Source: an uncultured Granulosicoccaceae bacterium (GTDB taxonomy: Bacteria > Pseudomonadota > Gammaproteobacteria > Granulosicoccales > Granulosicoccaceae). From it: a stretch of DNA of 64,000 nt. The DNA is taken from positions 1-64,000 of the forward strand of contig CALGKA010000061.1 of assembly GCA_937927895.1 (NCBI GenBank). Reading direction: 5' to 3'. How positions within the stretch are numbered: the stretch's first letter is position 1; each line of letters opens with the position of its first letter. The notes beneath the pieces were generated by a model, which worked only from the letters and a program-made list of their open reading frames with translations, did no database searches and had not been told where the DNA came from. Below, piece after piece: positions 22,897 to 52,624 of the stretch. A program made the translations under genes and the position numbers.

Positions 22897-24468
22897 ATGC
22901 ACAACACCATACAAAGATACGCTGGTGTATTACTATCAGTCATTGTTTGTCTCTCTCTATCTGCCTGCGTGACTCGCCCGCACGTGATAACCCAGAGCGA
23001 GATAGATAAACGCGCCTCTGCTGATTTCGCGGCGATGTTTTCAGATAGCGTTCCAGAAGGGGGCACCATTACTCTCTCTGAGGCGATCGCGAGGTCAATA
23101 AAATATAACCTCGACAATCGTCTGAAAAGGATGGAGTCGGTGATTGCGCAGAAAAACCTTGATTTAAGTGACCTAAACAAGCTTCCGCAATTAGCACTTG
23201 ATGCAGGTTACACCGAGCGTAATCGTCGCCAGGCATCCAGCAGTTTAAACCTTGGCACCGGTGTGCCGAACTTTGGTGCGTCAACGTCACAAGACAAAGG
23301 TATTTTAAACGCTGACCTCACGGCCAGTTGGGATGCGCTGGATTTTGGCATTGCTTACATTGATGCAAAACAGTCTGCTAATGAAGTATTGATCGCTGCA
23401 GAGCGCCAGCGCAGAATGACGCAAAACGTTATAAAAGACGTGCGTTATGCGTATTGGCGAATGTTAGGCACCACGCGTTTACAAAACGCACTGACTCCAT
23501 TGCTACGTGAAATAAAGCAAGGTCTAAATGACTCTTACGCTGCACAGCAAGCCAAATTAAAACCAATAGAAGAGTGCCTTGAATACCAACGCGCGATGCT
23601 GGATATTCAGCGTCAAATGCTGACCCTGCAGCGTGAGATCAATGCAGCACGTGTAGAGCTAACAGCCATGATGGGTTTGCCACCAGGGACAAAATTTAAA
23701 GTTGATGGTAGTCGAGCTAGCACTGCACCCTACAGAACCGATGAAGTGTTTGATGCTGCAGGTCTGCAGCAGCTAGCTCTTAGAAACAGACCGGAGCTAA
23801 TAGAAGAGGACTACAAAGCACGTATTGCTGTTGATGAAATCAAAAAGGCGCGCTTGAAACTAGTGCCCGGGTTAGAGCTTTTTACTGGTGTCAATCACAA
23901 CGACAACAGTTTCTTGTTGTATGACGTATGGTCAGCCACCGGCTACCGTCTAACGTGGAATTTACTGAATATATTCAGTGGTAAAAAGGCCATTAGCATT
24001 GCCAAGTCATCACAGGAGCTGGGCAATATAAGGCGCATGGCATTAAGCATGGCAGTGCTTACTCAAGTGGAGATTGCCATGCATAAATTGAAGCAATCAA
24101 AAGAAGATTACTCTATTGCGCGGCAGATGAATCGCGTTGACAGCAGCCTTTACGAGCAATATGTTAATAAGCGTAATGCTTCTCAGATGGATCATTTATC
24201 TGTGGTTGAAGCAAAGGCTAGAAACCTGATTTCTATGCTGCGCCATTCGATGGCATATGCAGAATGGCAAAACTCTGTTGGTCAGCTGTACACAAGTATC
24301 GGTTATCAACCCGCAGCTGTTCTTAATTACAACGAAAATCTTGAAGTCTTAACTGAGCAGGTTAAGGCTTACCTAAATGCACCGGCGTTTTCTGAGAAAA
24401 ACGGTTTTTATGTGCCAGTAAATGCTGCGCAAATTCAGCGCAAATCAGCTGCGGTTGCTGCTCGCTAA
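22897..24468 (+). CDS. TolC/OMF-family outer membrane lipoprotein
   Basis: This protein is 523 residues from the ATG at 22897. The frame is open 16 codons further, but this start gives a proper lipoprotein signal with lipobox LSAC (Cys24). The sequence has the outer membrane efflux protein layout: TITLSEAIARSIKYNLDNRL, long coiled helices (LMTLQREINAARVELTAMMGLPP), an inner duplication and YRLTWNLLNIFSGKKAISIA. Such proteins trimerise into an outer-membrane duct that receives cargo from HlyD-type adaptors. It heads an operon with two adaptors, an M50-fusion protein and the giant repeat protein, so it is probably the exit channel of that system. The 34-base gap to the next gene supports co-transcription. 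Confidence 0.92.
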   Translation: MHNTIQRYAGVLLSVIVCLSLSACVTRPHVITQSEIDKRASADFAAMFSDSVPEGGTITLSEAIARSIKYNLDNRLKRMESVIAQKNLDLSDLNKLPQLALDAGYTERNRRQASSSLNLGTGVPNFGASTSQDKGILNADLTASWDALDFGIAYIDAKQSANEVLIAAERQRRMTQNVIKDVRYAYWRMLGTTRLQNALTPLLREIKQGLNDSYAAQQAKLKPIEECLEYQRAMLDIQRQMLTLQREINAARVELTAMMGLPPGTKFKVDGSRASTAPYRTDEVFDAAGLQQLALRNRPELIEEDYKARIAVDEIKKARLKLVPGLELFTGVNHNDNSFLLYDVWSATGYRLTWNLLNIFSGKKAISIAKSSQELGNIRRMALSMAVLTQVEIAMHKLKQSKEDYSIARQMNRVDSSLYEQYVNKRNASQMDHLSVVEAKARNLISMLRHSMAYAEWQNSVGQLYTSIGYQPAAVLNYNENLEVLTEQVKAYLNAPAFSEKNGFYVPVNAAQIQRKSAAVAAR

Positions 24469-24502
24469 ATTCGCTAAAAAGCAGCATATTAAGGGAATTA
24501 GT

Positions 24503-25261
24503 ATGAAGAGAATACAGATTAACAAACAACTCCAGAAGACCTTTATAGGCGCTGCAATTGTCGCGGCAACTTGCGTTTCAGGGCCGGCGTTATCGCAAAC
24601 ACAAACACTTGAATTGGCAGCGGTTGTTAAGTCGGACGATACAGCAATTTTATCTAGCCAGATGGACGGGCTACTAACAAAAGTGCATGCTCGTGTCGGA
24701 GATACATTTACAAAAGGCGATGTTCTTTTATCTATTGAATGCACTTTGCAATCGGCAGCACTCGCTAAAGCCAGGGCAGAAGTTGAGTATGCGCGCAATG
24801 AATATAAATCTACCAGCGCGCTAGAGGCGCTTAATTCTACCACTAAGGTTCAGGTGGCGCGCAGTGCGGCGGAATTCGCCAAAGCAAAAGCAGAAATGCA
24901 AGCGGCAGATTTTAGAGTCAGCCAATGTCAAGTTCTGGCGCCTTTTGATGGGACTGTGATTCAAAGCTGGGCCAAAACGCATGAGTCTGTTAATGCGAAA
25001 TCCAAATTACTAGAGATAGTTAATAACAACAACTTAACCGCTGAATTTCTAGCACCGTCAAACGCTATCAACGATCTTACCACTGGCCGTTCATTTAAGT
25101 TGTTAGTCAGTGAGACCGGTAAAGGCTACACAGCCACTATAGATAAGGTAATTCCGTTTGTAGATTCGGTGAGTCAAACCGTAAAGGTGATTAGTCGCTT
25201 AGATTCTAATGATACCGGGCTCTGGGCTGGCATGAGTGGTTTAGTCATTCTAGATGAATGA
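24503..25261 (+). CDS. HlyD/RND-type periplasmic adaptor
   Basis: This protein is 252 residues, starting at the ATG at 24503 behind an AAGGGA site; the longer open frame overlaps the previous gene without support. A signal sequence ends PALSQ. The protein is a short membrane-fusion adaptor: a lipoyl half (LSSQMDGLLTKVHARVGDTF), a helical hairpin rich in Ala/Lys/Glu (about residues 80-130), the second lipoyl half (CQVLAPFDGTVIQSWAK) and a beta-barrel ending GLWAGMSGLVILDE. Adaptors bridge an inner-membrane component and a TolC duct. At 252 residues it is shorter than AcrA or HlyD and lacks a large membrane-proximal domain. Confidence 0.92.
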   Translation: MKRIQINKQLQKTFIGAAIVAATCVSGPALSQTQTLELAAVVKSDDTAILSSQMDGLLTKVHARVGDTFTKGDVLLSIECTLQSAALAKARAEVEYARNEYKSTSALEALNSTTKVQVARSAAEFAKAKAEMQAADFRVSQCQVLAPFDGTVIQSWAKTHESVNAKSKLLEIVNNNNLTAEFLAPSNAINDLTTGRSFKLLVSETGKGYTATIDKVIPFVDSVSQTVKVISRLDSNDTGLWAGMSGLVILDE

Positions 25262-25326
25262 AAGATTAAGGAGTAGTTAACCGTGGTTTGTACACCTTCT
25301 TAAAAATAGTTAACCAGTAGAGTAGA

Positions 25327-26673
25327 ATGCAAGACAAGTTAATTAGTCGACTCACTGATTTCATACAGTTTGAGCAAGAGATACGAAACGCTACCAGTAT
25401 TGAAGCGTTAGGGTTTACGGCGTGCAATTACTTGCGTCGTCTGTTGGCCTATGATGTTGCTTTGTTGTTGTTAGAGAAATCGAAAAGTCAGAGAGTTCTT
25501 AGTATCTCAGGTGTGTCTGACTTTGACCCGCGTTCACCTTTGGTTACTGCGGTTGAATCCCTTTGCAATAACCCGCAAGTACCTTTGCAAAGTGCACACG
25601 TGCACCTAACCCGTGAGTTGCCACGTGATACGGCACAGAAGCTCTCTGATATTCAGTTGCAACAGGTAGCGACAGTAGGGCTTAAGCCTGTAAATGGTAA
25701 ACATAACAATAGTAAAAATTCTACATTGGTGCTTACTCGTGATAAGCCATGGCAAAAACACGAGATTCAACTGTTACAACAAGTAGGCGATGTACTCGCC
25801 CATGCGATATCGGCATTGCAGAAAAGCCGCCGCATGCCGTTGATAAAAACACTGATACCTGGAGTCAAGCCGGATTGGCGCTGGGCTGTTTGTGGCTTGT
25901 TATTGGTATCAATAATTCCTGTGCCTCAAAGTGTTGTTGCAAGCGCCGAGGTAACCGCAAAATCACCGCTGGTGGTGGCCTCTGGTCTGAATGGTGTAGT
26001 GGAAGAAATATTGGTGCGGCCAAATGAACAGGTTACCAAGGGGCAACTTTTGTTGCGCTTTGACAGTACTGATCTTAGTCATAGAAAGAACACACTGCAG
26101 CAGGAACTTTCCTTAGCGCAAGAGCGCTTGCGCAAGGCGCGTCAACATTCTCTAAATTCAACCATTGAACGTAGTGAGTTTGCGGAGCTTGAATCGCAAA
26201 TAGAGCTAAAGCAATTAGAACTGGATTACATTAATGAGTCAATCACACGCTTAGAGTTACGCGCTGACTCTGATGGCGTGGTGTTGTTTAGTCGCGCTCA
26301 GGACTGGATGGGGCGAGTCGTTTCTACCGGCGAAAAAATTATGGAAATAGCCGATGCCGAAGACAACCAGTTCGAAATATGGGTGGCGGCCAATGATGCT
26401 ATTGAAATAAACGAAGGAAGGGCCATTAAATTTTTCCCCGATGCGCAACCTTTACAATCGGTTAAAGGGTCAATAGATTCTGTTGGATTTTTTGCCACCT
26501 TATCAAATACTGATGAGCTGGCCTACAGGGTAGTGGCGGCACCGTCTGACGAGCAAGATACTCTTCGCTTAGGTATGAAAGGCACAGCGCGGCTGTACGG
26601 TAAAAAAGTATCGTTGGCATACCATGTATTACGCAAGCCAATTAGTGCCATTCGCAAAACAGTTGGCGTATAG
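25327..26673 (+). CDS. HlyD-like adaptor with N-terminal GAF-like domain
   Basis: This 448-residue protein has two parts. Residues 1 to about 165 look like a cytoplasmic GAF-type sensor: SIEALGFTACNYLRRLLAYDVALLLLEKS and NSTLVLTRDKPWQKHEIQLLQQVGDVLAHAISAL, the usual last GAF helix. One membrane helix follows (WAVCGLLLVSIIPVPQSVVA), then a periplasmic HlyD adaptor. That adaptor has a lipoyl half (ASGLNGVVEEILVRPNEQVT), a helical hairpin (about residues 255-305), a second lipoyl half (LRADSDGVVLFSR) and a beta-barrel. The fusion could let a cytoplasmic ligand gate export. Its stop is 2 bases before the next start, so the two proteins are made together and may form one complex. Confidence 0.9.
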   Translation: MQDKLISRLTDFIQFEQEIRNATSIEALGFTACNYLRRLLAYDVALLLLEKSKSQRVLSISGVSDFDPRSPLVTAVESLCNNPQVPLQSAHVHLTRELPRDTAQKLSDIQLQQVATVGLKPVNGKHNNSKNSTLVLTRDKPWQKHEIQLLQQVGDVLAHAISALQKSRRMPLIKTLIPGVKPDWRWAVCGLLLVSIIPVPQSVVASAEVTAKSPLVVASGLNGVVEEILVRPNEQVTKGQLLLRFDSTDLSHRKNTLQQELSLAQERLRKARQHSLNSTIERSEFAELESQIELKQLELDYINESITRLELRADSDGVVLFSRAQDWMGRVVSTGEKIMEIADAEDNQFEIWVAANDAIEINEGRAIKFFPDAQPLQSVKGSIDSVGFFATLSNTDELAYRVVAAPSDEQDTLRLGMKGTARLYGKKVSLAYHVLRKPISAIRKTVGV

Positions 26674-26675
26674 TT

Positions 26676-29012
26676 GTGAATGCGCTGGAGCCGACGAGCC
26701 CTGTTAGGGGTAAGCAAAAAGCAGATGGTTGCCCGGCGCATGCCGGACATGCGAGTGTGTCTGAGCTTATTGGTCTTGAGTCTACCGTTGCGCGACAATC
26801 TGCGCCTGCACCGTCAGAAACACTATATAACAGATTATCGGGTCAAGCTACGACAGATCATGTAGTAGAGTCTTCCAGCTCTGATCAACCGATAGAAACG
26901 CTGCCTGTTTTGCGATCTGATTTGGTATTGCATCCTGCGCAGTTTGACAAGGGCGGACAACCTAAATGGACGCTGCATGATCCAATCAGAGGAAAGTATT
27001 ATAGGCTGGCGTGGCTTGAATTTGAATTGCTGAGTCGTTGGCATTTGAACGATGCTAACAAGCTACTGAACACAGTCAATGCCGAAACAACACTTTATGT
27101 GAGTCGAACGCATGTTGATGCTTTGCTCTCTATGCTTAAGAGCAACGAATTAACTCAAGCGCGATCTGATCATGATTTGCAACTGTTGAGTTCAAAACAG
27201 AAAAAGCCTGATGACCTCACTGTAAATTCGACTCTGAAGTCGGCATTTACTTTTTCAATGTTCTATCGAAAGCCATTGCTTAACCCGGATGCTTTTTTAA
27301 CCAATACGAATCGACTACTGCAGCCGCTGTATGCTGCAAAAAAAGCTATGTTGGTAGCGTGGTTGTGCATGGCTGCTATCGCCCTGTATGGAGTAGGCGC
27401 CCATTGGTTTGAGTTTCGTAGCACGTTTACGCAATTTATGACACCCGAAGGCTTTTCTGTTTTTGCGCTTGTTCTGGTGCTGATCAATGCTCTACATGAG
27501 GTGGGTCATGGACTAGTGGCGAAGCATTATAACTGCAGGGTGACTGAAATGGGAGTGGCGCTTATTTTTATGCTGCCAGTTTGCTATTGCGATACAAGTG
27601 ATACGTGGCGACTCACCGATAATCACAAAAGGCTGCTAGTGAGTGCTGGTGGAATAGTAATGGAGCTTGGCATTGCGACGATTGCTTGCTTGTGTTGGTT
27701 GGTATTGCCTGACGGTTTGCTCAGAACGCTGGCGTTCTTTTTAACAGTGACCTCCCTTGCTGCCACGTTGTTCATTAACTTGAACCCATTTATGAAGTTT
27801 GATGGCTACTATATTCTGGCAGATTCACTTGGCGTAGATAACTTACAGACAAAGTCGTTTAGTAATCTACGTTGGCAACTGCGCCGTTGGTTTACCGGTG
27901 TTAAAGAAGATAAGCCTTATAGAATCCCTGAAAGTAGTCATCGGCTAATGAACCTGTATGCCTTTAGCACCTGGATCTACCGGCTTGTTTTGTATTTTAC
28001 CATTTGTTGGATGGTCTATCAGTTCTGGTTTAAGGCCCTGGGACTTTTGCTATTGATTGGAGTATTTGTAACCATGATTGCCACACCCGTAATAAAAGAA
28101 TCAGCACAGTATGTTAGCTCTATTAAAAGAACCGGTATCAATATAAGAAGCGGCCTTTTTTCAATGGGCTTAGTGGCTATGTTGGCGCTGTTGGTGGTGC
28201 CATTACCGCGAAAAGTAACGGCGCCGGCGGTGTTAAGTAGTGTGCATACCTCAATGCTTTTTGCCACTAGTGCCGCACAAGTTAGCGCAGTGCATTTTGG
28301 GTTAGGTGACAACATAACAGAAGGACAAAAGTTATTGACGCTTTCGAACCCTGAATTTGAATACCAAAACGCCAAACTGAAGCGGGAGTTAGCCACTCTT
28401 AGAAAAAGAAAGCAGCTGGAAACACAGTGGCGCGCTAGTACTAGTGTCACAGAGGTCGGTGAATACGATATTGCTGCTCTAATGGCGTCGCTAAAAGAAA
28501 ATGAAGAACACATGAGCTCGCTTGAGCTTTTAGCGTCTGCGGATTCAACCGTAACTTCTGTGCCCGCATGGCTTACTGAAGGTGTGTGGGTTGATGCTAA
28601 TACAGAGCTGGCAGAGCTTGCTTCAAAGAGAAAGATAGAGGTGCGGGCTTATGTGCCTGCGGCCAGGCGTGGTCTGCTCAAAGAAGGTGGTGTTACTTTC
28701 TACTCTAGTACTAGCGGTAGGCGTGTAGGCCTCGATATCAAGACTATTGGAGATTCAAGTATTGATAGGCTGAATGATAAAGCACTTGCGGTTACCAATG
28801 GTGGTGATATAGCCGTTTCGAAAACTGCTGTTGGACAGCTACAACCAATACAGGATTGGGTGCTGGCGGTACTGACACCGGCAGATGGATCTGAACTTGA
28901 AATCAATAAAGAAACAAGTGGGTACGTGCTTTTTCCCGCTACTGCAAAGAGTCTGCTAGTAAGTGCTTTTGACAGGCTCTACGGTGTAGTTATCAGGGAA
29001 AGCGGGTTTTAG
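26676..29012 (+). CDS. M50 (site-2-protease-like) membrane protein with adaptor-like C-terminus
   Basis: This 778-residue inner-membrane protein starts with GTG, 2 bases after the previous gene. Residues about 80-190 resemble a PqqD-like or winged-helix region (LHPAQFDKGG, WTLHDPIRGKYYRLAWLEFE). Several membrane helices follow with a site-2-protease active site: HEVGH at residues 274-278 and NPFMKFDG at 370-377, giving two His, Glu and Asp for zinc. After the last helix (MGLVAMLALLVVPLP) comes a periplasmic HlyD-like tail with a lipoyl half (VSAVHFGLGDNITEGQKLLTLSNP), a short coiled coil and barrel segments. This combination of intramembrane protease and adaptor replaces the ATPase expected in type I export. 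It may process or gate the giant protein encoded next. Confidence 0.9.
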   Translation: MNALEPTSPVRGKQKADGCPAHAGHASVSELIGLESTVARQSAPAPSETLYNRLSGQATTDHVVESSSSDQPIETLPVLRSDLVLHPAQFDKGGQPKWTLHDPIRGKYYRLAWLEFELLSRWHLNDANKLLNTVNAETTLYVSRTHVDALLSMLKSNELTQARSDHDLQLLSSKQKKPDDLTVNSTLKSAFTFSMFYRKPLLNPDAFLTNTNRLLQPLYAAKKAMLVAWLCMAAIALYGVGAHWFEFRSTFTQFMTPEGFSVFALVLVLINALHEVGHGLVAKHYNCRVTEMGVALIFMLPVCYCDTSDTWRLTDNHKRLLVSAGGIVMELGIATIACLCWLVLPDGLLRTLAFFLTVTSLAATLFINLNPFMKFDGYYILADSLGVDNLQTKSFSNLRWQLRRWFTGVKEDKPYRIPESSHRLMNLYAFSTWIYRLVLYFTICWMVYQFWFKALGLLLLIGVFVTMIATPVIKESAQYVSSIKRTGINIRSGLFSMGLVAMLALLVVPLPRKVTAPAVLSSVHTSMLFATSAAQVSAVHFGLGDNITEGQKLLTLSNPEFEYQNAKLKRELATLRKRKQLETQWRASTSVTEVGEYDIAALMASLKENEEHMSSLELLASADSTVTSVPAWLTEGVWVDANTELAELASKRKIEVRAYVPAARRGLLKEGGVTFYSSTSGRRVGLDIKTIGDSSIDRLNDKALAVTNGGDIAVSKTAVGQLQPIQDWVLAVLTPADGSELEINKETSGYVLFPATAKSLLVSAFDRLYGVVIRESGF

Positions 29013-29105
29013 CTTAACCCACAGTAGTACTAAACATATTTCAGTTTGCAGCAATAAGCTCCGCTTTATCTGCAAGCGATCCATAGATTTACGGAGTGTC
29101 GTTTC

Positions 29106-44100: not shown

Positions 44101-47100
44101 TAGTAGACACAATAACGATCACCTATCGTACCTACGCTGATAGCGATGTGGTAGCAGGGGATACACTGAACAACGATGCCACTCTAATTTGGGATGCAGA
44201 CAACGACGGCGATAACAACGACAACGATGGCGCCTTAAGCGATACATCGAATGTAGATGTGATTTCACCAGAGCTAATTGTTGATAAACAAGTAACGCTA
44301 ATACCCTCTGATATTGGTGATACCGTTGAATACACCGTTGTTATTCGCCATACCGATAGCAGTGATGCACCGCTACCAGAATCGGCAACATCGGCCTACG
44401 ATGTCACCTTAAATGATCAGCTGCCAGCCGGGTTAATCAATGCCGCTATTGTTTCTGCGACAGATAGCGCAGGGCAAGCGGTTCCAGGTTTTGCTTTGTC
44501 GGGCAATACCGTCAGTCATGGTGGTTTTGATTTAGCCCATACGGATACCGTAACACTTGTAGTAAGAGCTGAAGCCGGAGCCGCCATAATTGAAGGCGAT
44601 ACCGTCACCAATGTGGCTGACATCAATTGGACAACACTCGATGATGCCACTGACGATGGCATAGATGCCAGTGAATCTGGTGGCTCTGCTAACAATAGCG
44701 CGAGTTTCTCGATAAGCGATATACAAAAGACGGTACTTAACACCGGTATTAATGATGCCAGCAACAATGATTCTGAAGTGGTAACAGGTGAGTTTGTGAC
44801 TTACCAATTATCAGTAGAGATCCCGCATGGCACTGTTGCTCTTGCAGAAATTGAAGATACCCTGGATGCCGGTTTGATCTTTGATCAGGCGAATGGTGTA
44901 ACGGTTGTGCCTGGTAGTGCAAATCTGACGACCAGCAACGGATCGTTTACTAACTCAACTACTACTTATGACCAGACAAGTAATCTGGTGAGTATTGAAC
45001 TTGGTGATATAACCAATACGGCGCCCGTGGGTACGGTAGAGACACTGACGATTACTTATCGCGTTTATGTCGATAACGATACTGTTAATGCATCGGTAGG
45101 TGACACGCTTAATAATGCAGTCAATTTTAAATGGGATATCAACAACGACGGTGACAACGACGGCCCGTTAGATGGTACCACTGAAGCACGAGCACCGGAT
45201 GTAACCGTTATTGGCACAGCGCTTCAAGTGAGCAAGCAGGTAGTTGTAGAGCCGAATGACGCTGGCGATACAATCACCTATGAGATGATAATAGAGCATA
45301 CAGCAGATTCACAAGCCGCGGCTTTTGACGCAACGTTTAGTGATGCAATACCGTCTGAAATTAGCGGTGTTAGCGTATCGGCGGTCAATAGCGCGGGCAC
45401 TGCGGTTAGCGGGTTTGCGGTAAGCGGCAATACCGTCAGTAATCCTGACTTCGATTTACCATTGGGTGAATCCATTGCCGTGACTATTACAGGTGTAGTC
45501 AACACGACCGCCTCTGCCAGTACGACGGTAACCAATACCGCAGATATCAGTTGGGAGTCGCTCGGTGACGATACCCAAGGCAGGCAATTAATTGAAGATG
45601 GCGGCACTGATTCAGCCAGCGATGATTTTATAGTCGCATCACCAACCTTTGAAAAGCTTCTGGTTAGTAGCGGTATTGAAGACGGTGTTAATACCGCAGA
45701 TGAAGTAGTGGCTGGCGAATACGTGACTTACAGCTTAGTGGTCACTGTGCCTGAAGGCACCACGCCAATGGCGCAGATCACTGATACCTTAAATAGCTTT
45801 CTAACTTTTGATGGCACCTACGCCATAACAGCAGTTGCAAGCAGTGGTGTTAGTTTTACCGGTAATGCGATAATGCCTGTGATCAATGGTAGTGATGTAA
45901 TCTTTGATCTTGGTACTATTACAAACACGAACACCGCTGATAATATCGACGATACCGTAACCGTTACGTATCGGGTCTACACAGAGCAAAATGTTGCCAG
46001 ACTAGATGTATTAGAGAACAGCGCTACGCTAATCTGGGATGCAGACAACGATGGCGACAACCAGGATGCAGACGGTGTTTTATTAGATTCAACTGATGTC
46101 AATGTTGTAGAGCCACAGCTGGTAGTGGATAAGCAAGTAACATTAATGCCATCAGATATTGGTGATCCGCTAGAGTACACTATTATTATTAGGCACAGTG
46201 ACTTTGCAGATGCGCCATTAGCACCTTCAGATGCAAGTGCCTACGATGTGGCTATCACTGATGAGATCCCACAGAGTATTGAAAATGTGGTCATAGTGTC
46301 TGCTGTCAACAGCTTCGGTGTGCCGATAGTAGGTTTTGCACTCAACGGTAATACTGTTAGCCACGCAGGCTTTGATTTGCCTCACAGTGACTTTGTCACG
46401 CTTACCATTAGTGGTACGGCGGGCAGTGCAATTGTTGAGGGCGATACAGTTACTAATGTTACTGATATCAATTGGAGTACCCTGGACGATACGACTGACG
46501 ATGGCATAGACGCTGTTGAATCTGGCGGGTCTGCAAGCAATGACGCTTCTTTCTCACTGGCAAACGTAGAGAAGTCGATTCTTAGCACCGGAATCAACGA
46601 CGCGAGCAACAATGATGTTGAAGTCGTTAGCGGTGAGTATGTCACTTACCAATTGACAGTAGAGGTGCCGCACGGCACAGCGGCTGTGGCTGAAATCGAA
46701 GATACGCTAGATGCTGGATTAATTCTTGATCAAAGCATTCCGGTAACCGTAACGCCCAGTAGCGCAAACCTGAGTACCAGTACTGCACCGGGTGATTTTA
46801 GTGTTACAGCAACCAGCTACGATCCAACAAGCAATAAAGTTAGCATCGCGTTGGGTGATATTAACAATGCCGCGCCAGTTGGCACAGTTGAAATGCTTAC
46901 GATTACTTATCGCGTGATAGTAGATAGTGATACCACCACTGCAGGCCCCGGTGCTGTGCTTAATAATGCAGTAGATTTCAGGTTTGATATTGATGGGGAT
47001 GGCAGCAATGACGGTCCACTTGATGGTAGCACTGAAGATTCAGCACCTACTGTAGAGGTTATAAGCCCGGAACTCACAATTACCAAGCAAGTCGTGGTAG

Positions 47101-50100
47101 CGCCACAGGATGCTGGTGATACTGTCGCCTACGAGATGCTTATTGAACACACTGATGCCTCGCAAGCCGGTGCCTTTGACGCTACGTTTACTGATACTCT
47201 GCCTGCAGAAGTTAGTATGGTGTCTGTTGTGTCCGCATTCGATAGTGTAGGCAATGCCGTTGGCGGCTTTGCAGTAAGTGGCAATACCGTAAGTAATCCA
47301 GACTTTGATTTGCCGTTAGGTGAGTCAATCACACTAACGGTGACAGGGACAATAAATACTATTGCGTCTGCGAGTACAACGGTTAATAACACGGCATTGA
47401 TCACATGGGATACGCTGGGCGATGATACGCAGGGTAATCAATCATTTGAAAATGGTGGTACTGATTCAGACAACGATGTGTTTACAGTCGCGTCTCCTAC
47501 ATTTGAAAAGACCATAGAAAGTACTGGAATTGCCAATGACACCAATGATAATGGCGAGGTAGTGGCCGGCGAGTATGTTACCTACAACTTGATAGCCACT
47601 GTGCCTGAGGGTACTACGCCATTGGTGCAAATTACCGACATTTTAGACCCTGATCTGTTGTTTGATTCAAGTTATAGCATTAGCGCTACAGGCAGTAATG
47701 GCGTTACTTTTACAGGCGCTGCTACTAGCCCGACAGTCAATAGCAACACCGTGGTGTTCGATCTTGGAACAGTAACGAATACCAATATTGATAACAACAC
47801 AGATGACACCGTTACCATCACCTATAGAGTCTTTACCGATAGTGATGTAGCTACTGATGCAGTATTGCCCAATAACGCCACCCTTGAATGGGATGCCAAC
47901 AACAACGCTCTGGCAGATGAGCCGAATGATGGTTCATTGACTGACGGTACCAGTGTGACGGTTATATCGCCACAATTGGTGGTTGAAAAATCAGTTTCAG
48001 AAGTGCCTGGGGAACAAGGTGATCCAATACAGTACACATTTGTGATTCGCCACAGTGATGCCTCTGATGCACCGTTGCCTCTTTCGCAAACGGGTGCCTA
48101 TGACATCGCATTTAATGATCCGTTGCCAGCGGGCTTAAGCGATCTTTCAGTCGATTCGGCCATTCTTTCAGATGGTACGCCGATCACTGGATTCACGTTT
48201 AATGGCAATACGTTGAGCCATACAGGTTTTGACTTAAACCATGGCGATTCTCTTACTTTGACAGTGTCAGGCATTGTGGGCACAACAGTGGTGGAAGGCG
48301 ATACCATTGTCAATATTGCAGATATCAGTTGGAGCACATTGGATGACAATAGCGACGATGGTATCGATGCCAGTGAGTCGGGTGGCAGTGGCTCTGGTGG
48401 TGCGAACTTCACGTTATCAAACCTCGAAAAATCCATAGTCAGCACCGGTATTAATGACTTTATCAACAATGATCTACACGCTGTAGCAGGTGAGTTTATT
48501 GATTATCAGGTCGTGCTTGAGGTGCCTAAAGGCTTAAGCGCTCAAGCTGAGATAATTGATCAACTTGATGCTGGTCTGGTGTTTGACACAACACAAGGTA
48601 TTACCGCTTTACCGAGCAGCTCGAATATCACTACTTCTCTGCAGCCAGGTGATTTTTCTGAGCTTAGCGCAAACTACGATCCACAAACTAATAGTGTAAA
48701 TGTGTTGTTGGGAGATATTACGAACATTGCACCAGCAAGCGTCATTGAAACCATTACGCTAGAGTATCGTGTATACGTCGCCAACGATGAAGCTACAGCC
48801 GGCACAGGAGAATGGTTAAATAACACTGTGAATTTTCGCTGGGACATAGACGGAGACGGCAGTAACACAGGGTTGTATGACGGAATCACTCAAGCATCAG
48901 CCCCTGAAGTAGCGGTTATCTCACCTGAACTTGATATAGTAAAAACGGTTATTGAAGACCCAGGTGAAAACGGCGACGCGATAAGCTATGAGTTTGTGAT
49001 TAGTCATTCTGCAGATTCAACAGCCACTGCGTATGATATGCAGTTTGTAGATGAGATCCCTGCTGGGGTATCTGGATTAGTAATCAACTCAGCCGTTGAT
49101 AGCAGCAATAATCCGGTTAATGGGTTTACTGTAGACGGTAATACTTTGCAGCATGCCGGTTTAGATCTGATATACGGTGATACCGTGACGGTAAGTGTAA
49201 GCGGTACCATCAATGAAACGGTAGACCCGGGTGACACAATTACCAACACCGCAACGATAACCTGGCGCTCGCTGGATTCCGGTAACGATACTGATGGTGC
49301 TGATGTTATTGATCCAAATGCAGCGCAGTTGCAATCTAATGAAGCGTCGGATTCTTTCTCTATAGCCGATTTACATAAGCGAGTTATCGACACCAGTATT
49401 GATGATAACGATAACGCTAAGTTTGAGGCAGTGGTGGGTGAATACATTACCTACGAATTGGTTATAGATGTACCGCAGGGTGTTTCAAGTTTTGCAGAGA
49501 TTCAGGATACACTTGATCAAGGCATGGCATTTGATTCACTGATTGAGGTAGTAGCAAGTTCTGATAGCCTAAGCACAGACCATGGTGTAGGGGATTTCTC
49601 AGATATTGTCGCGCCACTTGCAGGGTCTACCGATACTTTGCTTTTCCCCCTGGGTGAGATCACGAATACGAATCTTGACAATAGCGTGACTGAAACTCTA
49701 ACGCTTACGTATCGCGTTTACGTGCAAAATGAAAACACTGTACAGCCCGGTGTGACACTGGGCAATGATGCCGTCTACAGGTGGGATCTCAATGGTGATG
49801 GCGTGGCTGATAACGTTACTAATGCCAAAGCGGCGGCTGTTACCGTGTTAGAGCCTGTTATTAGTGTCAGCAAAACAGCAAATGACCCGGTACCGCATTT
49901 GGGTCAAGTGATCACCTACACAGTAACGGTCGCAAACGAGCCGGTTGCCTATGGTGCTGACGCGCGCGATGTCAGTGTGATTGATGCACTGCCTGCGAAC
50001 GCCGTATTAGATCCTGCGTCTATTCTAATCAATGGCGTGGCAGTGACCGATGATACCAATGTCACGGATCTTTCCAGTGGTAATACAGTTGCTCTATCAC

Positions 50101-51674
50101 TTGACAATCTTGAATACGGGGCTGAAGTAGCCATTAGCTATCAAGCGCTGTTAACCGCAGACACCAATGAATTTGGTGGCTCGGTTGATAACACGGTATC
50201 GGTGCAGTGGAGTTCGTTATCTGAGGCTAATCCGAATGATGGTTTGCATGCCTCTGAACGTGATAGTAGTGATGGTTTAGCGGGAAGTGCTGGTAACTCT
50301 ATAATACTCACTGCGCCGGATTATAAAATTGAAAAGGCCAGCGCTCCGAGTGGTGCTTTAAAAGCTGGAGATTCCATTGTTTATACGCTGTCTGTGAGTA
50401 ATATCGGTACCCATGAAGGGACAAATATTGAAATTTCCGATTTGTTCCCGGTAGAGGCTTTGGGTGCTCCAGGTGTAATTTCAAACAACGGCTCATTTGA
50501 CGCTATCACAGGTCATGTGAACTGGTTGATCCCAACACTTGCGATCAACGAGAACGTTATATTGACGGTTGAAGCTACAGTTGCCAACCCACAAGATACC
50601 AACATTGATGCGAATACTGCAACGGCTGACGATACCTTTACCAATACAGCCACAGTCACCGATGACGGCCTCAACGGTGGTGATCCTGATCTTACCAACA
50701 ATGAGGTGTCTGTCAGTGGAAGTATTATTGCAGCACCTGATTACACCATTAGCAAAACCAATAACAGTACTATGGCAGCTCCTACGGAGCGTGTGAACTA
50801 CTTTATAACAGCCTCTAACATAGGTACGCAAACCGGTACTAATGTTGTTATAACTGATGAGTTCCCGCCTGCTATTCTCACTATTATAGATGCGGCGGGT
50901 GGCGTAATTGATGAGCAGGCAGGCACGATAACCTGGGTTATAGATGAATTCTCAGTCGGCCAGGAGCAACAGCTTGCGGTAATTGCAGAGGTGAAACCCA
51001 CGGCAAATCTAGATACAGCAGATCAACTATTTACCAACTCGGTTTCAATAACAGATGATCTGCAAAATGGTGCCGATACTAACACCACTAACAATGACTC
51101 AACGGAGTCAGACATGCTGTTGGCAGGTGCAGGGGAGCCACTCATGCTGACGGCATTACCTGAAAGTATTGGTGCGTCACCTCTGGCTGAAAGCTCAGCA
51201 GGTTCAACTACAGACAGTGCGAATTTTAGACTTGCTACTCCTGATACTGCTCGAATAATGACTACCGAAATGCTAACAGGCCAGGGTACAGATGAAAATG
51301 AGCGCAACCGTCGTGCAGAGAATGATCTTATCAATGGTGGGCATTTGCTTGATACCTTCTCGGTGCCGTCCCCGGCGATTCATTGTTCACCGGGTGTTAT
51401 TAACTACGACTACGAAAGCGATCAAGAAGATCTTGAGTTACTAGAATGGTTGCAAGAAGCCGAAAGTGAAGAGGCCAGGCTGGAAGTCGAGCCATCTGCT
51501 CAGGGTTCTGAGGCGTCGCACGTTGAATTACAAGTGAATGGCGTTGTAAAAATCATAGATGAGAAGTTAATTGAACAGCCACAAACTCTACAGCAGCAGA
51601 TAGCGCGTGAAGCAGACAACCTCTACGGTTCTGATAAAAAAGAACTACTAGAAGCATTTAAAGACAGCGCATAG
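29106..51674 (+). CDS. giant 7522-residue repetitive surface protein (LEPR motif, DUF4347, DUF11/D2-like repeats)
   Basis: One uninterrupted frame of 22.6 kb. There is no classical signal peptide; instead the basic start leads to LEPRIMLDGAAP (residues 37-48), the LEPR-type motif of very large exported proteins. Residues about 95-280 form a DUF4347 domain (VVIVDTTIDGYQELL, VHVLSHGTEAGLIF, LLYGCDTG). A few irregular domains follow, then about 19 repeats of about 308 residues, each made of two DUF11/isopeptide-D2-like domains. These show a Lys near the start (LEKSIVSTGI), an Asp in the middle (DTLDAGL) and Asn near the end. Many carry acidic DxDGDGxNDGxxDG loops that could bind calcium. The last 200 residues are acidic and helical. 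No RTX nonapeptides, LPXTG or autotransporter barrel are seen. Probably a surface adhesin or stalk exported by the upstream genes. Confidence 0.93.
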   Translation: MLKNMLKRKATTTNLDKAGAPGHWSEGLYPPSEAMPLEPRIMLDGAAPAMLVDAIDELGADAHSVEVETHKDTQSKESQYPASTLTVGESKRNEVVIVDTTIDGYQELLSDLVGNTDELYWQTDETTGIESIIAEQHDRLVSIYAVDGQQSGLKSITEILSAQVDIDAVHVLSHGTEAGLIFNGSVIGTDLLKNNANAVASWGDCLTADGDILLYGCDTGVAGAGVEFVQQLSALTQADIAASDDPTGSSLNNGDWDLEVSSGPIETELVTEEQAQVAFVGLLSADPVATVDTPASGFINEAFEFTVTADNNGTDTGYSPYLNVFVEPGVNVNSASLFGSTLATQSYTWDAVSSSWLDSASNSLTEHPLDPAISLPAAPAVNGSEWILVDLPYGSYVPSQPPAEILFDATLDPSQGAALGQPIGITAQMGFELGEDPYNNPDTDAPIVGPLNSETITPTVLQIEKTADNYTPAVIGELENATGPNNPTTFILTVDLADGQTVDNILLSDVVPNNVHYLGSLTVAGSGSQVSLGTSDATIGVHNNNELTVSFASVTGTASDDDILITYQGYIPEVDANGDPILGATSGSPVGPVENTVDITGLSGGVMVSGSDTIEINPQAVAIQKASTILDSTGTTVARNTILPGDLLEWSLTIQVSDYFSMENFEITDNFSDGQLYVAGSESVELFHNGTATGPSSISATNVTLGTIDPATGLTEVAYDLSNIIATELPASAGVLDGDLVDGTQSGKTTALIKFRTQVQEEFQYPSVPGGNASVDVGDALTNNVNISSEVEGTGNTVTNVSTDRVQVDIPVATKSIYAINQDTDNWDTSDPEIAPGESITYRITVELPTSDVENLNITDYLPLPIFKAAPNYAYTGMYSGVDNVPAPGEYGFGPLTDPADFPSYFFDATGNSLDIASVTVSSTDNTVNWDFDAFSQPNSGGGVVDLLFTTATANVKFADGLSLTNQALVSYDNTNNPQEPIGSIISVSPIAPDIALTKGVVSVDSTSTGAFTPAAVGPVTFNDAGTAGAAFSGAVTSPGLIATPIDSDVSGLDAGDIVRFAITIENKGSFDATDITVNDNFPPEFAIPPGGLNMTAALGDGTPLAITGDLFNTSGLPDSTGVSFQQGGSTAYIGAGEVDDTLITDGSNIFVLTYDLMVGTNALPISTLENTADLLTFSAIAGGVDYTDGENNPGWTDDASVTTDTPSIDKGLTSSGIIDSTNPLNRAVPGEFIDYQVVITVPEGTFPAAQIRDDLDADVRFHEILGITSSADVTTSLANGFSDVVSPTPGTTGLTYFNLGDITNTNTDNSVDETITVDYRVYVKSDANDFALIRNRAYIFWDTTGNGNPNFQNIWDRAPNLRVVTPFLDVQKEITGQPPVDVGDTVTYSITIQHENTILPTSDTHAYNVNFSDTLPSEIGGISIVSVVDGSGAAVPGFTLSGNTIANPDFDLPYGESITVTVTGTVNSASAGAEVVNTADISWTTLDPDNPDDGIDAVEPTLLDSDSASYTVTDPILTKSVVSTGINSTTNNNAQVVNGEYVIYRLSISVPEGVTPTASIVDQLPSNIIYDPTFTPIITLSSGDFATELPGVPPTVSGGEVTFDLGTIKNSNNNNNVIEAITIEYRAYVSGAAPTDNPTNVADFRWDKDGDGSNTGPNDGSQISSTSLEVVEPILDVIKSVVPGTADAGDTVEYTIEIQHTPASETDAFDVAFKDDLPIELGSISLVSALDSGGAAVAGFAVVANTVFNNDFDLPLGETITLTVTGVAQTSISASTTVSNTAELEWDTLGDDTQGNQLAEDTRIATSEADFIVPSPEFTKTLVSTGIANTDNANNEVVAGEYATYQLEVTVPEGTTPLATIIDTLDEDLIFDPTYTVTVVASANVVFSGSPAAPSVSGSLVKFDFGTITNTNTDNAVDDTITITYRVHANRDLQLADVLINTAELQWDSDNDNNIDNNDLTLTSGNSLLVIAPELQVLKSISTVPIDAGDTVVYDYVISHTAASNATALDASFTDLLPPEIDAVSVAAVDGNGVAVPGFTIVPGFPQDAVVNPDYDLPEGETITVTVTGVVNTTASASTSVVNTGVIDWDSLGDDVEGNQDYEDSNSNSSSASFVVSSPTFTKSLASTGIDDASNAQNEVVAGEFVTYELRMVVPEGTTPMASIIDTLHADLDFDTAFGITAEASAGVLFTGNATSPTVAGNDVSFDLGTISNNNADNTVEDTIVITYRVYATAAVARGDILPNVAEFTWDSDNDGDIDTTDSLLTSGSTVQVIEPELVIDKSIATIPSDAGDAVVYTYSIEHTAASDAAALAASFTDLLPAEVAASTVAAVDSSGGAVAGFNIVSGTPQDSVVNTNFDLPLGETITVTVTGVVNTTASAGATVVNTGTIDWDTLSNDTQGNQLEEVTGSSSSSAQFVVVSPVFDKELLSTGIDDVSNDATHVVAGEYATYSVEIIVPEGTTPGATITDTLHANLRLDTGYSITTTASSGVAYTGSPNSPTVSGNDIVFDLGTITNTNTDNNLPETITIVYRVYADSDVLRGDTLDNNATFSWVVDDGATQTINTLSDSTDVTVIAPEMVVEKSVSQMPGEVGDNIEYTMVLRHTDAGDAPLPASDTAAYDVAFSDSLPAGLINPAIVSAVDSSNTAVSGFTLSGNTVSHAGLDIPLGETITLTVSAEAGAAIVEGQNVDNIAQINWTTLDDNSDDGFDAGEAYGSANDNAIFSLSDLEKSIVSTGIDDTSNDNTEVVTGEYVVYELIVTVPQGTSPLAEIEDTLDAGLIFDQAYPVTVSPSSVNLTTSVAPGDFSAVSTSYDAASGLISIDLGDISNAATGATIETLTVTYRAYVDNDTVNAPVGGVLNNDAEFKWDIDADGSNEGPLDGSTGAAAPHVDIIGNELQVSKQLTVVPTDAGDTVTYEMVISHSAASEAAAFDATFSDTLPAEVSSVAVISAVDGSGATVPGFAVSGNTVSNPDYDLPLGETITITVSGIVNSSASASSTVNNAADITWDSLGDDSQGVQGVETEGTATASDDFVVASPTFLKSIASTGINDSSNDNSLVVAGEYVTYDLVVVVPEGTTPLAQITDTLHANLLFDPNYTITAATSAGVSFTGLATTAVVSGSDVTFDLGTITNLNSNDTVTDTITINYRAYADQDVASAEILTNDATLIWDADADGDNNDNDGALTDTAQVSVITPQLVVEKDVSVMPSSAGDPLEYTIVIRHTGVADTPLPVSATSAYDVIFSDTLPPGVDNSSIVSALDSSGAAVAGFTLTGNAVSHPGFDLARNDYITLTIAAEAGALITAGDTVTNTAEIIWSTLDDNALSDGFDDAESGGDADDNAVFSLADIEKTIINTGVNDASNDNTEVVTGEYITYQLQLTVPHGSTPSAEIEDTLDAGLIFDQATGITIVPGSANLSTSSVPGDFSSVVTTYDAASNIISIDLGDITNSAPIGTVETLTITYRVYVDNDALYADVGDLLNNAVDFKWDIDGDGSNDGPTDGTTTSTAPDVVVIAPELQISKQVIVPPNDAGDTVTYEMVISHTGGSQAAAFDASFADTLPSEISNVSVVSAIDSSGATVAGFVVTGNTVSNPDYDLPLGETITLTVSGIVNTTASASTTVNNIAQIDWDTLGDDTQGYQPVEGTGTASASDDFVMASPTFEKSVADTGIDNLSNDNTEVVAGEFVTYDLVVTVPEGTTPMAQITDTLHANLLFDSSYAIAATGSAGVVFTGPATAPIVTGSNVVFDLGTITNTNTDDTAPDTITITYRAYADTDVVSAETLDNNATLIWDADNDGDNTDNDGVLTDTTDVTVIAANMLVEKAVTLMPADIGDTIEYTMVIRHSDASDAPVVASETGAYDVIFTDVLPAGLINPSVVSAVDSSNSAVSGFTVAGNTVNHAGLDIPLDEFITLTVSAEAGPSIVEGDTIDNIAIINWTTLDDAANDGFDAGESGGTDSDNANFSIGNIEKTVLNTGINDASNDNSEAVTGEYVTYQLSIEIPQGASAVAEIEDTLDAGLIFDQGFGVTVTPSSSNLTTNTAPGDFSNVATTYDPVTNLLSIGLGDVNNSAATGTVESLTVTYRVYVDNDIFNAPVGSALNNAVNYKWDIDGDGTNDGPLDGTTEAAAPEIEVIAPELEIAKQVIVVPADAGDIVTYEMVISHTGNSQAAAFDATFTDTLPSEISSVSIVSALDSSGIAVPGFVVSGNTVSHPDYDLALGDTITLTVTGVVNTTVSASTTVTNTASIDWDTLGDDSQGNQVVEDTGTDSASDDFIVASPAFAKSIAGTGINDPSAATENDNSEVVAGEYVTYDLVVTVPEGTTPMAQITDTLQNSLLFDSSYPITAVGTSGVAFTGAATVPTVSGNDITFDLGTITNSNIDDSIPDTITITYRAYSAQTVVSGDTLSNNATLTWDADNDGDNNDNDGTLSDSTDVAVIAPELVVEKSVSVMPSDIGDPLEYTIVIRHTDPGDAPLPVSETAAYDITFNDVLPAGIDSPGIVSALDSTGNTVPGFNLTGSTVTHTGFDLAHKDTVTLTLSGIAGSTIVEGDTVTNTANINWTTLNDTSDDGFDAGESGASETDSAVFSISDIEKRIVETGINDTSNDNLEAVSGEYVTYELVVTVPHGTSPVAEIEDTLDAGLVFDQANGVTVVPSSTNLTHSTAPGDFSAVAASYDAATNLVSFDLGDITNTAAEGTVETLTVFYRVYVANDAINAGLGATLNNAAEFKWDINGDGINDGPTDGTTEAVAPDVTIIGPELQLTKQVATVPSDAGDIVTYEMLIEHTGTSTAAAFDSTFSDTLPSEISNISIVSALDSSGAPVPGFSVSGNSVSNPDYDLALGDSITLIVTGTVNTTASASTTVINTANIGWETLGDDSQGNQSAQDSGTDQSSDSFVLDSPVFSKSISGTGINDSTNNNSAIVAGEYVTYDLVVTVPEGTTPLVQITDTLHSNLIFDPGFGITATGSSGVSFTGAAINPAVAGSDVIFDLGTVTNTNTDDSVVDTITITYRTYADSDVVAGDTLNNDATLIWDADNDGDNNDNDGALSDTSNVDVISPELIVDKQVTLIPSDIGDTVEYTVVIRHTDSSDAPLPESATSAYDVTLNDQLPAGLINAAIVSATDSAGQAVPGFALSGNTVSHGGFDLAHTDTVTLVVRAEAGAAIIEGDTVTNVADINWTTLDDATDDGIDASESGGSANNSASFSISDIQKTVLNTGINDASNNDSEVVTGEFVTYQLSVEIPHGTVALAEIEDTLDAGLIFDQANGVTVVPGSANLTTSNGSFTNSTTTYDQTSNLVSIELGDITNTAPVGTVETLTITYRVYVDNDTVNASVGDTLNNAVNFKWDINNDGDNDGPLDGTTEARAPDVTVIGTALQVSKQVVVEPNDAGDTITYEMIIEHTADSQAAAFDATFSDAIPSEISGVSVSAVNSAGTAVSGFAVSGNTVSNPDFDLPLGESIAVTITGVVNTTASASTTVTNTADISWESLGDDTQGRQLIEDGGTDSASDDFIVASPTFEKLLVSSGIEDGVNTADEVVAGEYVTYSLVVTVPEGTTPMAQITDTLNSFLTFDGTYAITAVASSGVSFTGNAIMPVINGSDVIFDLGTITNTNTADNIDDTVTVTYRVYTEQNVARLDVLENSATLIWDADNDGDNQDADGVLLDSTDVNVVEPQLVVDKQVTLMPSDIGDPLEYTIIIRHSDFADAPLAPSDASAYDVAITDEIPQSIENVVIVSAVNSFGVPIVGFALNGNTVSHAGFDLPHSDFVTLTISGTAGSAIVEGDTVTNVTDINWSTLDDTTDDGIDAVESGGSASNDASFSLANVEKSILSTGINDASNNDVEVVSGEYVTYQLTVEVPHGTAAVAEIEDTLDAGLILDQSIPVTVTPSSANLSTSTAPGDFSVTATSYDPTSNKVSIALGDINNAAPVGTVEMLTITYRVIVDSDTTTAGPGAVLNNAVDFRFDIDGDGSNDGPLDGSTEDSAPTVEVISPELTITKQVVVAPQDAGDTVAYEMLIEHTDASQAGAFDATFTDTLPAEVSMVSVVSAFDSVGNAVGGFAVSGNTVSNPDFDLPLGESITLTVTGTINTIASASTTVNNTALITWDTLGDDTQGNQSFENGGTDSDNDVFTVASPTFEKTIESTGIANDTNDNGEVVAGEYVTYNLIATVPEGTTPLVQITDILDPDLLFDSSYSISATGSNGVTFTGAATSPTVNSNTVVFDLGTVTNTNIDNNTDDTVTITYRVFTDSDVATDAVLPNNATLEWDANNNALADEPNDGSLTDGTSVTVISPQLVVEKSVSEVPGEQGDPIQYTFVIRHSDASDAPLPLSQTGAYDIAFNDPLPAGLSDLSVDSAILSDGTPITGFTFNGNTLSHTGFDLNHGDSLTLTVSGIVGTTVVEGDTIVNIADISWSTLDDNSDDGIDASESGGSGSGGANFTLSNLEKSIVSTGINDFINNDLHAVAGEFIDYQVVLEVPKGLSAQAEIIDQLDAGLVFDTTQGITALPSSSNITTSLQPGDFSELSANYDPQTNSVNVLLGDITNIAPASVIETITLEYRVYVANDEATAGTGEWLNNTVNFRWDIDGDGSNTGLYDGITQASAPEVAVISPELDIVKTVIEDPGENGDAISYEFVISHSADSTATAYDMQFVDEIPAGVSGLVINSAVDSSNNPVNGFTVDGNTLQHAGLDLIYGDTVTVSVSGTINETVDPGDTITNTATITWRSLDSGNDTDGADVIDPNAAQLQSNEASDSFSIADLHKRVIDTSIDDNDNAKFEAVVGEYITYELVIDVPQGVSSFAEIQDTLDQGMAFDSLIEVVASSDSLSTDHGVGDFSDIVAPLAGSTDTLLFPLGEITNTNLDNSVTETLTLTYRVYVQNENTVQPGVTLGNDAVYRWDLNGDGVADNVTNAKAAAVTVLEPVISVSKTANDPVPHLGQVITYTVTVANEPVAYGADARDVSVIDALPANAVLDPASILINGVAVTDDTNVTDLSSGNTVALSLDNLEYGAEVAISYQALLTADTNEFGGSVDNTVSVQWSSLSEANPNDGLHASERDSSDGLAGSAGNSIILTAPDYKIEKASAPSGALKAGDSIVYTLSVSNIGTHEGTNIEISDLFPVEALGAPGVISNNGSFDAITGHVNWLIPTLAINENVILTVEATVANPQDTNIDANTATADDTFTNTATVTDDGLNGGDPDLTNNEVSVSGSIIAAPDYTISKTNNSTMAAPTERVNYFITASNIGTQTGTNVVITDEFPPAILTIIDAAGGVIDEQAGTITWVIDEFSVGQEQQLAVIAEVKPTANLDTADQLFTNSVSITDDLQNGADTNTTNNDSTESDMLLAGAGEPLMLTALPESIGASPLAESSAGSTTDSANFRLATPDTARIMTTEMLTGQGTDENERNRRAENDLINGGHLLDTFSVPSPAIHCSPGVINYDYESDQEDLELLEWLQEAESEEARLEVEPSAQGSEASHVELQVNGVVKIIDEKLIEQPQTLQQQIAREADNLYGSDKKELLEAFKDSA
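32760..49850 (+). repeat. coding repeat array: about 19 units of about 925 bp
   Basis: The motif GE(Y/F)xxY...VP(E/H/Q)G recurs about 19 times, from near 32796 to near 49436, at an average spacing of about 924 bases (308 residues). Each unit holds two domains: one with D-T-L-x-x-x-L after GEYVTY, one with DAGDTVTYEM then SDTLP. Units are similar in protein but clearly diverged in DNA, so the array is old rather than freshly amplified. Confidence 0.9.
37432..48560 (+). repeat. higher-order repeat of about 1.85 kb inside the giant gene
   Basis: The anchor IEDTLDAGL occurs at 37432, 39279, 41133, 42999, 44853 and 46698, and a variant (IIDQLDAGL) at about 48558. Spacings are 1847, 1854, 1866, 1854, 1845 and 1860 bases. 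Between anchors, PEGTTP-type and PHG/PQG-type units alternate. The 308-residue unit was therefore first duplicated and diverged into two types, and the pair was then amplified about six times. Confidence 0.88.
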
Positions 51675-52624
51675 TGAGCAAGCAGTATAAAACCAGTTAC
51701 GCTTTATATTTGCAGCGTTGGCGCAATACGATTGCGTTTGTTATAGCTGTTTTTGGCTGTTCTTTGGAAAGTGTTGCTAGAGAGTATCAAATTCCCACTG
51801 ATAGCAACGTGGTTGGTCACGTAGAGACAGTGGTGGCAAGCCACGAGGACACCATCTATACACTAGCGGTGCAACATGAGGTCGGTGCATCGGCATTGAT
51901 TAACGCTAATAATGATATAGATCATAGGCTACCAGGTGAGGGTGTGGTATTGAGTTTACCCACTCGGTATGTACTGCCTAATGTAGAACGCGAAGGCATA
52001 ATCATTAATTTACCCGAGATGCGACTTTACTATTTTCCGCCACACAAGCGCTCTGTGCATGTGTACCCAGTCGGTATTGGAAGGCAAGGGTGGGACACAC
52101 CGCTTATCGAATCAAGAATCACAAGTATTGTTAAAGACCCAACTTGGACACCGCCGCAATCTATTCATCAGGAATACCAAAATGCCGGTCTCAGCCTTCC
52201 AGCTGTTGTTCCTCCAGGGCGCGATAATCCTTTGGGTGAGTATGCGTTAAGAATAGGACATACCAGCTACCTGATTCACGGTACTAACAACGCTAAAGGT
52301 GTGGGTCTAAGAGTGAGTCATGGTTGCATAAGATTGTATGCTGCGCACATTGAGGAATTGGCGTCAATGATAGATGTTAATACGCCGGTAAAGGTGATTA
52401 ACCAGCCGCTGAAAATTGGTCGCCACGGTGAAAACTGGGTAGTGCAGGTACATAAACCGATTCAAGGCGCTGCATATGATTACCGCTTAGCTGTGCAAAA
52501 ATTCTTTAGTTATGTAGAGGCGATACTCTCAAAGTCAGAACTTATGCGGGTGAAACAACGCATTTTGCAGTCAATGCAAAAAGAGGATTTATACACAGGT
52601 TTACCCATAATTGTGAAGCCATAA
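51674..52624 (+). CDS. L,D-transpeptidase (YkuD family) with LysM-like N-terminus
   Basis: This 316-residue periplasmic enzyme starts with a GTG whose first base is the last base of the giant gene's stop codon, so translation is coupled. A hydrophobic export segment (TIAFVIAVFGCSLESVA) precedes a LysM-like peptidoglycan-binding stretch (EDTIYTLAVQHEVGASALIN). The YkuD domain begins IIINLPEMRLYYFPP and ends with the catalytic block YLIHGTN...RVSHGCIRLY, with Cys in SHGC. Such enzymes make 3-3 peptidoglycan cross-links or attach proteins, as ErfK/YbiS-type enzymes do with Braun lipoprotein. Its coupling to the giant protein suggests it either anchors that protein to the wall or remodels the wall around the exporter. 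Confidence 0.94.
   Translation: MSKQYKTSYALYLQRWRNTIAFVIAVFGCSLESVAREYQIPTDSNVVGHVETVVASHEDTIYTLAVQHEVGASALINANNDIDHRLPGEGVVLSLPTRYVLPNVEREGIIINLPEMRLYYFPPHKRSVHVYPVGIGRQGWDTPLIESRITSIVKDPTWTPPQSIHQEYQNAGLSLPAVVPPGRDNPLGEYALRIGHTSYLIHGTNNAKGVGLRVSHGCIRLYAAHIEELASMIDVNTPVKVINQPLKIGRHGENWVVQVHKPIQGAAYDYRLAVQKFFSYVEAILSKSELMRVKQRILQSMQKEDLYTGLPIIVKP

Follow-up and report, generated by a model that had tools for sequence, protein, structure and literature searches.

A recurrent M50-HlyD operon as a candidate export and display system for LEPR-tagged giant proteins

How might a protein of several thousand residues reach the cell surface when the operon that carries it encodes a TolC-type channel and periplasmic adaptors, and no ABC gene is found among its members? 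This question is raised by six plus-strand genes at positions 22897-52624 of a 64,000-nucleotide stretch (the window) that belongs to the 4.55-Mb genome, assembled in 168 contigs, of an uncultured Granulosicoccaceae bacterium (table 1). The intergenic distances of 34, 65, 2 and 93 bases, followed by a 1-base overlap, are exactly those described in an earlier, sequence-only reading of this DNA, which had proposed a dedicated export and display system. Our analysis leads to a related answer: we consider it fairly probable that the operon, whose layout is here called type A, is one copy of a system that is dedicated to exporting and displaying giant surface proteins and is built on an M50-HlyD fusion and not on an ABC transporter.

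Table 1. Positions in the window of the six operon genes and of the features discussed in the text.
Feature	Position	Strand	Match or remark
TolC/OEP-family outer-membrane channel, lipoprotein (lipobox LSAC)	22897..24468	+	PF02321 3e-25
Short HlyD/RND-type periplasmic adaptor with signal peptide	24503..25261	+	PF13437 6e-14, TIGR01730 2e-34
GAF-like cytoplasmic domain, one TM helix and HlyD adaptor	25327..26673	+	PF13437 1e-12
M50 (site-2 protease type) membrane peptidase fused to periplasmic HlyD adaptor	26676..29012	+	PF02163 2e-8, PF13437
PqqD/RRE-like N-terminal domain of the M50 protein, residues ~74-166	26895..27173	+	proposed LEPR-leader reader
Giant repeat protein, 7,522 aa, DUF11-type repeats; putative cargo	29106..51674	+	
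LEPR-type leader motif LEPRIMLDGA, giant residues 37-46	29214..29243	+	
DUF4347 domain, putative His/Cys protease (H174, C217), giant residues 95-283	29388..29954	+	PF14252 1e-41
C-terminal tail of the giant, weak common motif (LQQQI ... LLEAF)	51426..51674	+	
L,D-transpeptidase (YkuD), translationally coupled in the window	51674..52624	+	PF03734 6e-22

The TolC/OEP gene begins the type A operons of the relatives and is also found in plasmid operons. The start of the short HlyD adaptor was taken as the Met at 24503; the open reading frame itself is longer and extends from 24422. The third gene, with a single TM helix at residues 186-204, had been read as a GAF-HlyD fusion, which holds for its HlyD part; the N-terminal domain gets no Pfam call in the window copy and can be called GAF-like by family evidence only, as the second copy in the same genome matches GAF at 2e-8 and the family profile matches PDE5 GAF-A weakly (0.047). 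The sixth gene was also listed as part of the module, and this assignment has to be given up: the L,D-transpeptidase is absent from all five plasmid loci and is a convergent neighbour in one relative genome (G019), which places it outside the conserved module. After the transpeptidase, the window holds a small outer-membrane-like open reading frame (52856-53497) that has no match in Pfam or NCBIfam; elsewhere, at 1160-2020, 13761-14609 and 16723-18099 (minus strand), three secreted-looking proteins have in common the repeated motif C-x-D-x-DGDGWGWDG-x-x-SC.

Among the closest known parallels is the route taken by giant RTX adhesins in type I secretion (LapA/LapBCE, SiiE, HlyBD-TolC), which likewise combines a giant repeat cargo with an HlyD-type adaptor and a TolC-type channel, both recognised here by Pfam (PF13437, PF02321). 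The differences concern the remaining parts. An M50-HlyD protein, joined in sister clusters by a SecA-like ATPase, stands in place of the ABC ATPase, for which there is no gene among the six of the window operon or in the five plasmid operons; an additional GAF-HlyD adaptor is present; and an N-terminal LEPR leader is found instead of a C-terminal RTX signal, the search for GGxGxDxU repeats in the 7,522-residue giant having found none, in agreement with the first reading. The operon thus falls outside type I secretion, from which it departs in two tested defining features, although it probably resembles it in mode of working. In a 2021 review, the inner-membrane parts given for such conduits are ABC, RND and MFS transporters only (PMC8277102).

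We rejected the reading of the locus as an adhesin type I system whose ABC gene merely escaped the assembly, since this ABC-free order is widespread. The succession TolC, HlyD, GAF-HlyD and M50-HlyD is repeated in Alpha-, Beta- and Gammaproteobacteria, and the giant gene adjoins it at complete loci; since the order recurs across three classes, it is not a chance arrangement of the window. M50-HlyD is present in nine relatives (GTDB genomes) and in 44 of the 48 genomes of the order, and about 75 loci read gene by gene gave 77 GAF-HlyD and 77 M50-HlyD open reading frames, which are paired. Three layouts were distinguished. Type A, that of the window, consists of TolC, HlyD, GAF-HlyD, M50-HlyD and the giant; type B of GAF-HlyD, M50-HlyD, a short SecA-like ATPase and HlyD, followed by a giant or sensor gene; and type C of GAF-HlyD, M50-HlyD and HlyD, followed by a giant, PAS-GGDEF-EAL or sensor-kinase gene. 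Type A operons are also carried on plasmids of E. coli, Kosakonia, Azospirillum, Variovorax and Niveispirillum, with the giant gene first in order and giants of up to ~16,000 residues; in E. coli such operons are uncommon, with 24 carriers among 5,426 complete genomes. One Ahrensia M50-HlyD operon has beside it a 1,118-residue protein (L012:13116-17473) that adjoins Cas1 and is a probable type II CRISPR neighbour.

The co-occurrence check suggested by the sequence-only reading gave a result far above chance. Among 399 Pseudomonadota genomes, M50-HlyD is found in 91 (~23%), DUF4347 in 94 and both in 75 (odds ratio 71, p=1e-46), and at the genus level 37 of 213 genera have both (odds ratio 44, p=2e-21), genomes or genera being treated as independent in these p-values. 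The view that the module is a dedicated one is supported.

The M50-HlyD fusion, with six strongly hydrophobic segments, is the sole polytopic membrane protein among the six operon products. It has the features of peptidase family M50, namely a HExxH motif (HEVGH in the window) and the distal Asp of PxxxxDG, located in the membrane, with a PF02163 score above the cut-off; H274, E275, H278 and D376 are invariant in all 88 distinct M50-HlyD proteins. Its C-terminal half matches MacA/MexA in Foldseek. As a Foldseek search with the whole model returned adaptors only, the N-terminal domain was examined by profiles. In the AF2 model this domain has the PqqD topology (bbb-aaa). Pfam PqqD is matched by 11 of 33 homologues at E values up to 1 (best 2e-4) and not by the window sequence alone, so that the RRE assignment is one of the family profile. 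Against the PDB, that profile finds PqqD (3g2b) and a lasso-peptide RRE (6jx3) as its best natural matches (E 0.007 and 0.012), below designed beta-trefoils, which rank higher; aligned by hhalign to PqqD proteins from the relatives, it scores 96.7% (E=4e-10). At the family level the domain thus combines the three-strand, three-helix winged fold with a PqqD-like profile, and because of this likeness the putative leader reader is probably located on the M50 protein. In contrast to known PqqD domains and RiPP recognition elements, which serve peptide-modifying enzymes, the domain is here fused to an intramembrane protease-adaptor, and its leader binding is putative. The M50 region itself is related to leader-processing RiPP proteases (daptide_HExxH NF041824, 2e-45; YydH/LiaK NF058609, 7.5e-11; both scores under the curated cut-offs), which differ in that the protein described here is fused to HlyD and encoded beside a giant protein gene, TolC and adaptors. 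The polytopic nature, the invariant catalytic residues and the RRE-like domain all speak for the earlier suggestion that the fusion forms the inner-membrane part of the operon; M50-HlyD is a probable, still putative, substrate receptor and inner-membrane platform.

What such a receptor could recognise is indicated by the N-terminus of the giant. The LEPR-type motif reported there is indeed present, although in NCBIfam (LEPR-8K; LEPR-XLL, NF012209) the window copy scores 14.3 bits, below the curated 17-bit cut-off. LEPR-XLL names the same kind of N-terminal motif; it is a motif-only model to which no exporter is assigned in the literature searched. A strict form of the motif, LExRx[hydrophobic]2[SDN][AGSP] near the N-terminus, occurs in 43 of 52 DUF4347 giants, drawn mostly from exporter-bearing genomes of the order and from plasmid loci, where shuffling predicts 0.05; most of the others have degenerate forms such as MEPKILYSAD. 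None of the 26 DUF4347 matches in 15 near-complete genomes lacking M50-HlyD has it (p=2e-13), and these frames start with signal peptides or run straight into the domain. Conversely, all four M50-linked giants without DUF4347 (L193, L201, L202 and L205) have kept LEPR. The motif therefore tracks the M50 exporter, in support of the first reading, and not DUF4347. DUF4347 as the sorting signal was rejected on both counts, being found without LEPR and M50 in the 15 genomes and missing from LEPR giants beside M50; it is dispensable. Two clades of the M50-HlyD tree are fully supported, one with the TolC-type operons, whose giants begin with LExRx[LM][LF]D[GA]A, and the other paired with LExRxL[FYL]SAD (support 100/100). 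This pairing represents one deep split, and is therefore consistent with co-adaptation without amounting to repeated evidence.

DUF4347 may have a different role. The giant has only three cysteines, one of which is C217, the putative nucleophile of the domain (its three isolated hydrophobic stretches all lie inside repeats). His and Cys are invariant in 27 of 27 aligned domains; in a wider set of 62 domains, second copies included, they are kept in 56 and 57, respectively. With the AF2 model (pLDDT 88.5), Foldseek gave its best TM score, among the matches listed, to Tce1 (9qpe_G, 0.48/0.55); small GTPases and G proteins, which lead by E value, were set aside for their low TM (0.3-0.4) and rmsd of ~7. 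Tce1 (PA0256) is a P. aeruginosa DUF4347 protein with the same His/Cys pair, proposed as a cysteine protease by its authors (PMC13323088), and is type VI cargo, whereas here the domain forms part of the N-terminus of a LEPR giant. With its alpha/beta fold and conserved His and Cys, DUF4347 is a putative His-Cys protease, which might cut the leader or release the giant. At the opposite end, the tails of the window giant and of ten further type A giants carry the motif [FL]-[ST]-x-[QE]-[LIV], often followed by LLxAL; a loose pattern, picked after inspection, fits 10 of 11 type A tails against 1.3 by shuffling. This weak motif could be an anchor or a second signal, and it leaves room for a C-terminal signal of a non-RTX sort.

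The source of energy is the point at which the sequence-only reading stood in part. The window operon is indeed without an ATPase gene; no linked SecA-like ATPase is found at the locus, and the window genome has only the housekeeping SecA and no short SecA-like gene. The lack of an ATPase is not a general feature of the module, since a dedicated one is encoded in many sister clusters. Type B clusters contain a SecA-like protein of 660-720 residues with SecA_DEAD, preprotein-binding and P-loop domains (NBD1, NBD2) and intact Walker motifs (Walker A TGEGKT); beyond these, no SecA domain was detected, the wing/scaffold included. In the phylum sample, where only copies scoring above every housekeeping SecA were counted, 41 copies occur in 35 genomes, all 35 of which have M50-HlyD (~3e-23 given the background of 91/399). 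Nineteen of 20 fetched loci adjoin M50-HlyD and one ends at a contig edge; within the order, intact copies lie beside M50-HlyD or, at a contig edge, beside a DUF4347 gene. Examples of the family, for which no name was found in the literature searched, are L080:2951-4948, L084:4045-6153, L086:9522-11519 and L166-L185.

SecA normally partners SecYEG, and its relative in these clusters brings up a first alternative, namely that the giant with its LEPR leader crosses the inner membrane via SecYEG with SecA or the SecA-like protein, M50-HlyD only cleaving the leader and recruiting adaptors for the passage through TolC. The linkage of the motor in many clusters and the intact active sites of what are, after all, proteases agree with this route. 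Nevertheless, the tested LEPR giants have no typical signal peptide, their N-termini being less hydrophobic than the signal peptides of the window TolC and HlyD proteins (some overlap the weaker control). The motor shares NBD1, the preprotein-binding domain, NBD2 and Walker A with SecA/SecA2, but differs from them in its length of ~660-720 residues, the undetected wing/scaffold, the M50-HlyD linkage and its absence from the window genome, and housekeeping SecA aligns to only its first ~555 positions. We regard the Sec route as unlikely.

A second alternative retains type I secretion and lets an unlinked HlyB/LapB-type ABC transporter act in trans as the motor, the operon providing adaptors, channel and processing protease. 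Such a transporter, able in principle to act in this way, counts against our export model: the window genome has one LssB-type ABC (749.8 bits, G000:C14) on a separate contig. It sits, however, between a DUF11-repeat gene, apparently its own substrate, and its own HlyD gene. Moreover, three relatives that are at least 93% complete and have 6-10 DUF4347 matches (G007, G014 and G018) give no match higher than ~311 bits, which is where generic exporters score, in this search for LssB-type transporters. The existence of genomes that hold many LEPR giants but lack an LssB-type ABC argues against transport in trans, as do the ABC-free plasmid operons and the lack of RTX repeats in the giant, and this explanation seems quite improbable.

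Several genes directly downstream of type B and C exporters or giants (L014:13867-17127, L013:4667-7684, L079:3490-8294, L083:502-5306) encode PAS-GGDEF-EAL proteins or hybrid histidine kinases with REC-GGDEF-EAL partners, which suggests c-di-GMP control in these clusters. They also invite a third explanation, in which the giant is exported by another path and M50-HlyD senses or cleaves the already exported LEPR protein for retention or signalling, in the manner of LapD/LapG; DUF4347 as a putative protease would suit such a release function as well. Yet TolC and the three proteins of HlyD type serve in export, the linked genes include no other exporter, and window-type operons have no linked signalling gene, so we think it very improbable. 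The window genome has a second exporter of this kind (G000:C12:163673-172127, corresponding to L014:8673-17127), composed of GAF-HlyD, M50-HlyD, HlyD and PAS-GGDEF-EAL, with no linked giant. Unlinked LEPR-type giants are encoded on C97 (two adjacent) and C4, and on C23 there is a DUF4347 giant whose called open reading frame begins with LFSAD; these may be the cargo of the second exporter.

Under the preferred explanation, export by the M50-HlyD module itself, the giant would be synthesised with its N-terminal leader (LExRx[LM][FL]D[GA]A), which would be read in the cytoplasm by the PqqD/RRE-like domain of the M50 protein. An adaptor assembly, formed by GAF-HlyD, the short HlyD and the membrane part of the M50 protein together with its HlyD arm, would dock on the TolC-like lipoprotein, and the unfolded chain would be threaded out. 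The leader could be cut by the M50 active site, by the DUF4347 domain of the giant, or by both. In type B the force would come from the linked short SecA-like ATPase; type A, having no such gene, would borrow it from housekeeping SecA, the proton motive force or another motor. To our knowledge, M50 proteases have no known role as protein transporters.

A broader claim, to which we give about even weight, is that these operons represent a distinct and widespread class of Gram-negative exporter. In this class, the place of the ABC transporter would be taken by a protein that joins an intramembrane protease, an adaptor and a leader reader of the RRE type, and in some clusters a truncated SecA-like motor would drive cargo bearing the LEPR tag, up to ~16,000 residues long, through a TolC-type conduit. 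No description of M50-HlyD/LEPR export as a secretion system was found in the literature searched, which covered few subscription journals and no bioRxiv preprints. Within that coverage, no known kind of secretion was found to have an M50-HlyD/RRE inner-membrane part. If the module does export, TolC-type conduits would have a further inner-membrane solution besides ABC, RND and MFS transporters, the LEPR motif would gain a function, and an exit route would be explained for many giant proteins without RTX repeats. It is predicted that LEPR together with M50-HlyD marks cargo and exporter in any genome.
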